This document shows, piece by piece, positions 12,067-40,627 of a stretch of 45,996 nt of DNA. The position numbers and the translations under genes were made by a program. The stretch is taken from NCBI GenBank assembly GCA_014376525.1, contig JACMRI010000011.1:1-45996 (forward strand), written 5' to 3'. The notes beneath the pieces are model-generated. The model searched no databases. It saw only the letters and a program-made list of their open reading frames with translations, and was not told where the DNA came from. Position 1 is the stretch's first letter, and the number at the start of each line of letters is the position of its first letter. This stretch comes from Bacteroidia bacterium. Lineage in GTDB: Bacteria > Bacteroidota > Bacteroidia > UBA4408.

Positions 12067-12639
12067 TTATTGAAACTCAAAAAACGAACAAGTGTTTTTA
12101 GCTACTGTTATTGTTCCGTTCCATGTGTTAAGTCCGTCTGTACCCGAAATGGTATGCGAACCTACTTTTAATATAGGAAAAACGCAACCTGCACCAGCAC
12201 AATCTGGCGCACCAACTGTGTAATACGAAGTTATATTACCTACATATGCACCATCTACTTTTACTGAAATATCTCCAGCACCATTTGTTTTAGATGTCCA
12301 AATGGTTAATTGACCAGTGGCAGTTTTAATACTTACGGTTTTACTTGCTTCACTGCTTTTTTTACCGTTTTTTGATGTAGCTACTAACTTAAAAGTTAGG
12401 TTTCCATTAACCCAATCTTCGCCAGTTTTATAATCAACATTAGCACTTGTACTTGTTTGCCCATCTGCTAAAGTCCATTTGTATTTACTTGCATCAACTG
12501 ATAAGTTTGTTAGTTGTATAACATCTCCACCTACATAATTTGTTTTGTCGGTTGTAAACTCAGCACTTGGCTGTTTTTGGCAAGCGGTTATTAACATTAC
12601 CGACATTCCTCCAACGATTAATTTTTTAATTAAATTCAT
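12067..12639 (-). CDS. Small PKD-like lipoprotein, function unknown
   Basis: From the ATG at 12637-12639 this is a 190-residue lipoprotein. It has a lysine-containing signal peptide (MNLIKKL...), a lipobox ending LITAC with Cys about residue 19, then a single PKD/Ig-like module (AEFTTDK, NYVGGDVIQLTNLS, YKWTLADGQ) and a C-terminal beta-rich part with two nearby Cys (CAGAGC). The frame continues 41 codons upstream into the structured RNA element, but that stretch is arginine-rich and precedes a proper signal peptide, so it is rejected. The gene is probably surface or periplasmic. It is preceded by a long hairpin and the RNA element, and followed by a strong terminator, so it is likely monocistronic. 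Confidence 0.75.
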   Translation of the reverse strand: MNLIKKLIVGGMSVMLITACQKQPSAEFTTDKTNYVGGDVIQLTNLSVDASKYKWTLADGQTSTSANVDYKTGEDWVNGNLTFKLVATSKNGKKSSEASKTVSIKTATGQLTIWTSKTNGAGDISVKVDGAYVGNITSYYTVGAPDCAGAGCVFPILKVGSHTISGTDGLNTWNGTITVAKNTCSFFEFQ

Positions 12640-12649
12640 TTTTTGTTTA

Positions 12650-12688
12650 TTTTTTAATCTACTGCGTCTCGCAGTAGTGATTAAAAAA
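12650..12688 (-). other. 17-bp interrupted hairpin in the lipoprotein leader
   Basis: The inner stem CTACTGCG/CGCAGTAG (12659-12666 with 12670-12677, 3-nt loop) is extended after a 2-nt bulge by nine A-T pairs (12650-12658 with 12680-12688). On the minus strand it lies between the RNA element and the lipoprotein ATG, 11 nt before the start codon. It is followed by A-rich, not U-rich, sequence, so it is not a normal terminator. Its outer arm shares the U-tract of the RNA element, so the two structures compete. Confidence 0.55.
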
Positions 12689-12852
12689 ATAGCGTGAGAC
12701 AGTTGCCGCAACTTGCTAAAGAGGGAGTAAGAAGCCCGTGGTCCAAGTACAGCAACGCTCACGCATATACTGCGTGAACGTTTACTTATACTCCCTGACC
12801 GTTGAATTTCTAATTTTTCTTTACGCAGGATGATATAGCAAACGCTATTTAT
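12683..12852 (-). ncRNA. Structured RNA element, copy A (unassigned family)
   Basis: This region is alignable over ~165 nt with 40384-40556. Shared blocks, given on +, are GTGAGACAGTTGC, GGGAGTAAGAAG, GCAACGCTC, ATACTCC and GCAGGATGA. Four helices can be drawn: S1 12687-12695/12842-12850, S2 12702-12706/12752-12756, S3 12722-12729/12789-12796 and S4 12755-12764/12772-12781. S2 and S3 cross, giving a pseudoknot. Mismatches in S1 of copy B and S4 of copy A become G-U pairs if the RNA is on the minus strand, and a T-run follows there, so minus is preferred. An alternative helix, 12692-12698 plus 12702-12706 with 12752-12764, ends right at the T-run, like a terminator. A lipoprotein gene starts 44 nt downstream. 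No known family is recognised. Confidence 0.55.
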
Positions 12853-12988
12853 ATTATTTAAACATGAATAATGTTTTTTTAAAAGTTAGCAAAATTGTTT
12901 TTTATAGTATTCACTATTATTTAGTTAATATTGTAAATAACAATCATCTATCAACTCTTGCCAAGCTTAAGCGTATTATTATTAAAAC

Positions 12989-39603: not shown

Positions 39604-40271
39604 TTAATAGTTTATTGTATAGTAGGCAGAATCTCCTACAACTTTAATTTGGTTATCAAAAGAAACATCCGTTATTTTAATACCATTACGATATACTTGA
39701 TAATCAAACCCACCACCTACATAATCAGGACTTTTTGAACTTTTATCACCTCTAAACACACCTCTAATTATTGTATTATTTTGCTTTCCAGTAAACCTTA
39801 AATAACTTGAAACAATTAAGCTGTCCTTATCATTTAAGTAATTAATATTATTTAACGTTATAACTACAGGAAATTGCTTGTAAACACCTACTGTAAATAT
39901 TTTACGTTCGTCGTGTATGGTAGCAGTTTCGCTAGGTGCACTTAATCCTGTAAACACAGTGGTAAATCCATTTTGTTCAGGTGCTAAAGTACGGTATTGC
40001 ATACCAAAACTGCCTTTACGAGGTATTTCTAAAACTATATCAAACTTACCATCGGCATCAGTTAATACGAATTTTTCGTAGCCTGAAGGCTGAAATCCGT
40101 TACCAAGAGAACCTTGTATAAAACATACTTTTACCCCTGCTAATGGTATTGATGTTTTGTCGTAGTCCCAATTGGCTATTTCAATTACTTGTCCTTTTTG
40201 TGCATTACTTTTGTTTTGCTACAAGCGTTTAGTAAGGTAAGGGCTATTAGGGTCGTGGTTAGTGGTTTCAT
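39604..40271 (-). pseudogene. Frameshifted lipoprotein gene
   Basis: A lipoprotein start at 40269-40271 (MKPLTTTLIALTLLNACSK, lipobox LLNAC) runs into stops after 28 codons. A different frame then encodes ~200 residues (AQKGQVIEIANWDYDKTSIP, GVKVCFIQGS, KFVLTDADGKFDIVLEIPRKG, and on to NQIKVVGDSAYYTINY). The frames join if one A is added in the A-rich tract at 40209-40217, giving CSKNKSNAQKGQ. The gene is therefore either broken by a 1-nt deletion or hit by a homopolymer error. The body is an Ig/carboxypeptidase-regulatory-like beta-sandwich of unknown function. It follows RNA element copy B by 113 nt, as the other lipoprotein gene follows copy A. Confidence 0.8.
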
Positions 40272-40383
40272 GGTTTATTAGATTTAAGATATTAGACATT
40301 AGATGTAAGGCTAATGTAGTTATAAATCTTAGTAAAGTGTGTAGGTGTTTTTTGTTTTACCCCTGCATCTATTATCTAGAGGG

Positions 40384-40556
40384 TTAAAAAAATAACGTGA
40401 GACAGTTGCTAATACTCGCGAAAAGTGGGAGTAAGAAGTCCAGTACATAAAGTTAAGCAACGCTCAAGCCAAAGGCGTGAGCGTTTACTCATACTCCGTG
40501 TTTACTTGAATCTCTTACTTTTCAGATGCAGGATGAAAATAATAAACGCTATTTAT
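40384..40556 (-). ncRNA. Structured RNA element, copy B (unassigned family)
   Basis: This second copy of the element at 12683-12852 has the same block order and spacing. Helices are S1 40390-40398/40546-40554, S2 40405-40409/40457-40461, S3 40428-40433/40492-40497 and S4 40461-40470/40474-40483. S4 differs in sequence from copy A yet still pairs (CGCTCA/TGAGCG and GCC/GGC here, ACG and TCACGC/GCGTGA in copy A), which is covariation. In S1 an A-C mismatch on + becomes G-U on -. On minus the element ends GTCTCACGTTATTTTTTT, again terminator-like. The S2-extended alternative helix has only 4+5 pairs here. Flanking 40272-40383 and 40557-40627 contain no other gene. Confidence 0.55.
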
Positions 40557-40627
40557 AATTGGTGGAAGCACAGTTTAAATTTTATTACGATGCAAGTTTA
40601 TTTTTAGAAACTAGAAGCCTTAGTTAT

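Follow-up and report, generated by a model that had tools for sequence, protein, structure and literature searches.

What are the two related non-coding stretches that lie, far apart and diverged in sequence, in a 45,996-nt contig of a Bacteroidia bacterium (GTDB lineage UBA4408; assembly GCA_014376525.1, contig JACMRI010000011.1; the whole stretch is called the window here), and what might they do for the genes beside them? An initial annotation had described them as two copies of an unassigned pseudoknot-forming RNA. Judged from sequence comparison, they belong to a family of structured 5' leader RNAs contained in the transcript of the downstream gene, a family spread over the phylum Bacteroidota, and we somewhat favor the reading that the leader acts in cis as a two-state expression switch of that gene.

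The copies were searched for with R2, a covariance model built from alignment A6 (four sequences, drawn from four other genomes); the window's genome was left out because a model trained on it could be circular. In the window search, R2 matched copy A at 12651-12857 (minus strand, 45.0 bits, E 4.7e-9) and copy B at 40355-40560 (minus strand, 28.4 bits, E 3.5e-5). There was no third convincing match in the window (next best 13.7 bits, E 0.09), and nothing above 15 bits was found in about 400 kb of background Bacteroidota DNA. The two copies can be aligned over about 170 bases with a mean column identity of 81% (two-row alignment), and both the closing helix (AAATAGCGT/ACGCTATTT) and the apical hairpin can be seen in the window copies, together with a base-swapped helix (GGTC/GACC in A; GTAnnCA/TGnTAC in B). 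The initial annotation was thus right that two diverged copies with ordered shared blocks lie at these places, independently recovered by R2 on the minus strand, and that one helix has different bases yet pairs in both. Its places for the element hold, but its limits of about 165 nt do not, since the element continues through a terminal hairpin to the start codon; likewise both copies are real, but two is not the copy number, as the genome carries more.

At least seven clear copies with 70-80% identity were found in the window's genome by blastn, and R1, a model built from seven clear copies of this genome, added three weaker ones (40-60 bits), two of which also score with R2. The covariance-model search of Bacteroidota genomes found many further homologues: in the same class, 102 of 395 genomes and 61 of 197 genera had matches, many of them multi-copy (E <= 0.01 per genome), and in a second sample, drawn from the phylum, 49 of 396 genomes matched at E <= 1e-4, 11 of them from other classes. 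A DNA-level search found almost nothing outside the window's genome, which argues that structure rather than sequence is conserved. Two arrangements of copies were seen besides. At locus L039, 1501-1673 on the plus strand (G000:C201:13103-13275), a degenerate extra copy, possibly a decaying relic, lies 1.3 kb from another and has no sense gene behind it; at locus L154, 3261-3440 and 3542-3727 on the minus strand form a tandem leader pair with about 100 nt between them.

The Rfam covariance-model check matched no known family: with Rfam 15 at the gathering cut-off, the window and nine homologous loci gave no match, and permissive scans gave chance-level scores. A weak full-length alignment with BTnc231 (14 bits vs 80.4, E 1.7) was judged to be chance, and no tRNA was found in the window. 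No counterpart appeared in published full texts and the motif table of PMC2864571, a comparison that did not extend to the supplementary motif lists of large surveys (e.g., PMC8040213). The general kind, a structured cis-regulatory leader, is already known, while the family itself appears to be undescribed; its sequence hypervariability and its use by unrelated genes are unusual traits for a leader family. Among plasmids, blastn with copy A found no match, blastn with another relative matched two Bacteroidota plasmids, and the two named plasmid loci, hosted by Chryseobacterium shandongense and Rhizosphaericola mali, matched R2 with 64 and 51 bits. Phages searched by blastn with copy A and with a relative, and viral contigs searched by pattern, gave no match, and a phage, viral or plasmid origin was rejected on these results.

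The position of the element relative to genes is strongly one-sided. An open reading frame (ORF) lies on the right side of 129 of 135 copies and is sense in 120, at a median distance of 20 nt from the end of the model, and antisense in nine; left neighbors are mixed (54 plus, 65 minus). The nine antisense calls, which include small ORFs overlapping the element, are probably ORF-calling noise. The Bacteroidota -7 box has the consensus TAnnTTTG (PMC9723704), and this box occurs upstream of 73 of 99 family members in sense, compared with 22 in antisense and 9 in shuffled sequence, with a peak 40-60 nt 5' of the element. For the 68 leaders whose start codon is clear, the U-run at the end of the element lies a median of 48 nt before that codon, and no TAnnTTTG occurs between the two in any of them. 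Since the box is upstream and no other separates the element from its gene, the gene's transcript must run through the element. The strand agrees: paired cells across the family contain 352 G-U and 70 C-A combinations, an excess that identifies the gene strand (minus in the window) as the functional one and bears out the earlier remark that C-A mismatches in the copies become G-U pairs on the minus strand. Internal leader-peptide ORFs occur in 57 of 99 members, a figure counted without a control set. Around the two window copies, the promoter-like sequences and genes are as follows.

12889-12897, minus strand: CAATTTTGC, weakly resembling a -7 box without an exact TAnnTTTG, upstream of copy A (from sequence; exact boxes in 73/99 relatives).
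12067-12639, minus strand: gene behind copy A, encoding a lipoprotein-like protein of 190 amino acids that weakly resembles a PKD domain; start codon at 12639 (ORF and domain similarity).
40593-40600, minus strand: -7-like TAAACTTG upstream of copy B (from sequence).
39604-40271, minus strand: frameshifted lipoprotein gene (MKPLTTTLIALTLLNACSK...) behind copy B (from sequence).

The fold was derived from A8, a 99-row family alignment fitted to the model, and consists of helices P1, P3, P5 and P6, a GGN..NCC hairpin and a terminal hairpin. In A8, 91.5% of cells pair, compared with 68.9% after shuffling; compensatory changes occur in 38 of 41 pairs, double-change cells number 821 vs 257 shuffled, and the covariation score is 0.529 vs 0.045-0.067 with slid partners. 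Because A8 was fitted to the model, a column-independent test was added, in which the longest complementary run between two segments of one sequence is compared with that of permuted partners. The runs were 7.1 vs 3.0 for P3 (z = 41), 6.6 vs 3.0 for P5 (z = 39) and 7.4 vs 3.6 for a strand between P3 and P5 against the loop of the GGN..NCC hairpin (z = 34), all z values being inflated by relatedness between the sequences. This last pairing is the conserved pseudoknot of the family, 7 bp long and hypervariable, with 68 different strands among the 99 members; dozens of different strands, each with its own partner, cannot be explained by common descent alone. The loop of the small hairpin is thereby predicted to be almost wholly paired with the strand upstream of P5. 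P6 is paired in 97.6% of cells across the family, and its duplex CACG/CGUGGG, with the GG/CC of the small hairpin, is the most conserved sequence, the other helices being freely variable. The inner pairs of the terminal hairpin (helix 8) are 71% paired and include double changes. In the two window copies, the parts of the leader lie at these positions.

12651-12857, minus strand: leader RNA of copy A, including the terminal hairpin (R2 match).
12842-12850, minus strand: P1 5' strand of copy A, AAATAGCGT, partner 12687-12695 (sequence and family alignment).
12687-12695, minus strand: P1 3' strand of copy A, ACGCTATTT, continuing into the U-run (sequence).
12818-12827, minus strand: P3 5' strand of copy A, partner 12714-12722 (family-wide P3 z = 41).
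12714-12722, minus strand: P3 3' strand of copy A (sequence).
12808-12813, minus strand: pseudoknot 5' strand of copy A, imperfect here (family-wide z = 34).
12723-12737, minus strand: GGN..NCC hairpin of copy A, with loop 12726-12734 as pseudoknot 3' strand (family covariation and sequence).
12797-12800, minus strand: P5 5' strand of copy A, GGTC, partner 12740-12743 (family-wide P5 z = 39).
12740-12743, minus strand: P5 3' strand of copy A, GACC (sequence).
12756-12780, minus strand: apical hairpin P6 of copy A, 5' arm 12772-12780 and 3' arm 12756-12764 (97.6% of cells paired family-wide).
12692-12706, minus strand: outer 3' strand of copy A, GCAACTGTCTCACGC, able to form an alternative helix with the P6 3' arm GCGTGAGCGTTGC at 12752-12764 (compensatory changes keep Watson-Crick pairing).
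12683-12689, minus strand: U-run of copy A, directly 3' of the closing helix (sequence; at least five U in 71/99 relatives).
12650-12689, minus strand: terminal hairpin of copy A, U-run paired with the A-run adjoining the start codon (sequence; family helices 7-8).
40355-40560, minus strand: leader RNA of copy B (R2 match).
40546-40554, minus strand: P1 5' strand of copy B, partner 40390-40398 (sequence).
40390-40398, minus strand: P1 3' strand of copy B, ACGTTATTT, with one G-U pair on the minus strand (sequence).
40513-40519, minus strand: pseudoknot 5' strand of copy B, AGTAAGA, forming 7 bp with the loop sequence TCTTACT of 40428-40441 (family covariation and sequence).
40428-40441, minus strand: GGN..NCC hairpin of copy B with the pseudoknot loop (sequence).
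40459-40485, minus strand: apical hairpin P6 of copy B (sequence).
40354-40392, minus strand: U-run and terminal hairpin of copy B (sequence).

Copy B thus forms all 7 bp of the pseudoknot (AGTAAGA/TCTTACT), copy A only about 4 bp, with mismatches. This pseudoknot is not the crossing that had been proposed. The initial annotation had two helices, S2 and S3, cross; it gave no helix coordinates, and GGGAGTA/TACTCCC, taken here as its S2, is unsupported family-wide (z = -1.0), so that GGGAG/CTCCC was rejected as the conserved pseudoknot. Its broader claim of a conserved structured RNA on the minus strand is upheld by the many homologues and by covariation, checked by shuffles and permutations in place of R-scape, far above chance. 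What it overlooked is the leader position, the multi-copy status in genome and phylum, and the true conserved pseudoknot.

How could such a leader act? In the two-state switch that we somewhat favor, a promoter upstream of the element would drive minus-strand transcription through it and into the gene, whose start lies a few tens of bases beyond. When folded, the pseudoknot domain would keep the 3' arm of P6 (GCGUGGG) inside the apical hairpin; in the other state, this arm would pair with the CCCACGC that immediately precedes the U-run, and a terminator-like stem would result. The U-run could also pair with A-rich bases before the start codon, which would hinder translation, and gene expression would depend on the prevailing state, set by a ligand, a protein or a condition. 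Consistent with this model, the arm GCGUGGG is complementary to both the P6 5' arm and the CCCACGC before the U-run, and compensatory changes preserve both pairings; in the alternative helix (column pairs 195-204/303-313), U-A has changed to C-G in four cases and G-C to A-U in four. The P6 arm against the outer strand gives a permutation z of about 8. P1 offers no partner for the C-C-C of the outer strand, whose conservation would best be explained by the alternative pairing. The stem is followed by at least five U in 71 of 99 members and at least four in 83 of 99, and a stem and then a U-run before a gene make an attenuator-like layout for which termination is predicted.

Pairings that reach the start site point in the same direction. 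In A8, the U-run pairs with the A-run before the start codon in the terminal hairpin. Initiation in Bacteroidota does not use Shine-Dalgarno pairing and is governed by local structure and bases near the start (PMC6847099), and the terminal hairpin could therefore hinder translation. Eight members of one 10-member subfamily carry a second copy of the pseudoknot strand in their terminal-hairpin loop, matching seven different strand sequences, and the loop-to-hairpin complementarity is 5.4 compared with 3.5 permuted (maximum 5.0). In other subfamilies, the outer 3' strand pairs over at least 6 bp with a downstream strand, e.g., GGGACAUU (24/99 vs 9 expected). Such pairings between the domain and the start site suggest a switch. 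Several points weigh against it. Folding without pseudoknots favors the P6 state by 10.7 kcal/mol on average, with the alternative favored in only 14 of 99; the alternative stem would enclose about 80 nt, which is long for a terminator, and two to three non-U bases often stand between stem and U-run. The downstream genes share no common pathway and hence suggest no ligand, and the start-site partners differ between subfamilies.

The genes behind the leader are diverse. By a simple heuristic, 53 of 114 downstream proteins are secreted- or lipoprotein-like. Pfam assigned DNA methylases (6), sigma-70 regions (4), response regulators (3), RibD_C (3), Laminin_G (3), PKD and others among 104 downstream proteins, with no dominant family, and PADLOC added mainly restriction-modification methyltransferases. 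Leaders c1, c2 and c3 are 79-80% identical, yet the genes behind them are non-homologous, which shows the leader to be a module whose spread does not depend on the gene. The intact remainder of the copy B gene is 49% identical to the protein behind leader copy c7. The frameshift in this gene (39604-40271, minus strand) may be real decay or an assembly error; an intact leader-bearing paralogue lies elsewhere in the genome (L038). Conserved leader-gene pairs are rare; the same response-regulator gene (MIKVLLVDDSA...) stands behind the leader in three genomes (L193, L199, L250), and a conserved 93-amino-acid protein directly follows it in two (L165 3316-3594 and L166 3244-3522, both minus strand). 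At two duplicated loci, AATAGCGTTTGCTA, the 5' end of the element, occurs a second time in the same orientation, about 230 nt away, in the signal-peptide region of the downstream gene, at these positions.

L005, 587-600 and 818-831: AATAGCGTTTGCTA and its recurrence.
L006, 777-790 and 1011-1024: AATAGCGTTTGCTA and its recurrence.

The repeated short ORFs of L167 5277-7295 (IPYMCGDEP / LFPTCVGMNR), which lie at a distance from the leader, resemble a translated CRISPR (clustered regularly interspaced short palindromic repeats) array.

This diversity speaks for a tentative alternative, in which the leader would not be a ligand-like on/off switch but a platform that binds a protein or RNA polymerase to modify elongation, by processive antitermination as with JUMPstart/RfaH, EAR or put RNAs, and helps accessory, often horizontally acquired genes to escape termination. 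One leader serving unrelated accessory genes (secreted proteins and lipoproteins, DNA methylases, extracytoplasmic function (ECF) sigma factors, response regulators) suits such a platform, and a conserved P6 duplex CACG/CGUGGG plus GG/CC, with the other helices free, would be expected if a shape and one site were recognized. However, known antitermination leaders serve long operons, whereas the downstream units here mostly look short, and a platform would require neither the conserved alternative pairing nor the U-run near the start codon. Rather doubtful is a more specific form of the switch, a self-addressed one, in which the 7-nt loop would choose between its internal partner and, in some subfamilies, a second, identical partner sequence at the start codon of its own message, the hypervariable pseudoknot keeping paralogous leaders off each other's messages; if true, it would be a new class of RNA switch.

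We consider it unlikely that the element is an independent trans-acting small RNA (sRNA) gene ending at the U-run, with the adjacent gene a mere neighbor. The stem and U-run could terminate a transcript of about 200 nt, the variable hairpin loop could serve as a seed, and multi-copy sRNA families are known in the phylum (FopS, PMC11697453). The strict sense orientation and the short distance to the next start codon speak against it, as does the finding of a promoter box between U-run and gene in 0 of 68 leaders; FopS loci, by contrast, are intergenic, antisense or in 3' untranslated regions (3'UTRs) (PMC11697453).

A mobile DNA repeat, resembling a miniature inverted-repeat transposable element (MITE) or an attC recombination site, whose fold would be a by-product of inverted repeats, is disfavored as an explanation of the structure and very improbable. 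Dispersal fits it: at least seven copies in one genome, copies before unrelated genes with a promoter-plus-leader module spreading independently of the gene, presence on two Bacteroidota plasmids, and integrase-like genes beside some loci. A MITE or insertion sequence, however, would be expected in random orientation, whereas 120 sense vs 9 antisense and a fixed start-codon distance are found, with a one-strand G-U bias, compensatory change in internal helices and pseudoknot, and an upstream promoter; only the short P1 resembles a terminal inverted repeat. Integron attC sites, suggested by the cassette-like accessory genes, were rejected by the single-strand G-U bias and the promoter position, and their GTTRRRY/RYYYAAC boxes, sought by eye, are missing in the window copies. 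Equally remote is a self-cleaving or RNA-guided element with the hypervariable loop as guide and the partner copy at the downstream flank as target, to which the 68 distinct pseudoknot strands and the partner repeated beside the start codon in one group might point, but the second partner copy is confined to subfamilies with only a small excess across all 99, the downstream genes have no linked nuclease, transposase or reverse transcriptase family in common, a fixed catalytic core was not recognized and no Rfam ribozyme family matched. Retrons, group II introns and IS110 bridge RNAs, prompted by the guide-like loop, were rejected, as no such protein family occurs among the first 25 families listed for the 104 downstream proteins.

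This pseudoknotted leader of about 200 nt, for which Rfam has no family, is present in about a quarter of the genomes sampled from the class, often in several copies per genome, and it precedes genes for secreted proteins, restriction-modification, sigma factors and other accessory functions. If the two-state switch is true, it would constitute a layer of gene regulation at phylum level in bacteria that are dominant in guts, soils and fresh water and do without Shine-Dalgarno control. The covariance model of the leader can be written down now, and cultivated hosts carry the leader (the Chryseobacterium shandongense and Rhizosphaericola mali plasmids).

Several known systems are comparable. The FopS/GibS sRNA family of Bacteroides (RF04319) is likewise a multi-copy structured Bacteroidota RNA, but it is about 70 nt long, trans-acting and intergenic, antisense or 3'UTR-located (PMC11697453), whereas the present family is about 200 nt long and lies directly before genes; RF04319 had no match in the window and nine homologous loci, only a chance 16 bits (gathering 56) at 40262-40326, outside the element. 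Flavo-1 (RF01705) and 6S-Flavo (RF01685) are also structured Bacteroidota RNAs from comparative genomics (PMC2864571), and neither model matched; Flavo-1 matches have no sense/antisense preference (PMC9723704), whereas the present family is strongly sense. JUMPstart/ops (RfaH), EAR (epsC motif) and put leaders are similar in that one element is common to unrelated operons, but the present family has no sequence match to them and mostly single genes behind it, and its antitermination is only hypothetical. From riboswitches and attenuator leaders it differs in implying no ligand or common pathway, in its sequence-hypervariable helices and pseudoknot, and in its unrelated genes, but it shares with them the 5' leader position, a pseudoknotted domain, a potential alternative pairing before a U-run and a short distance to the start codon.
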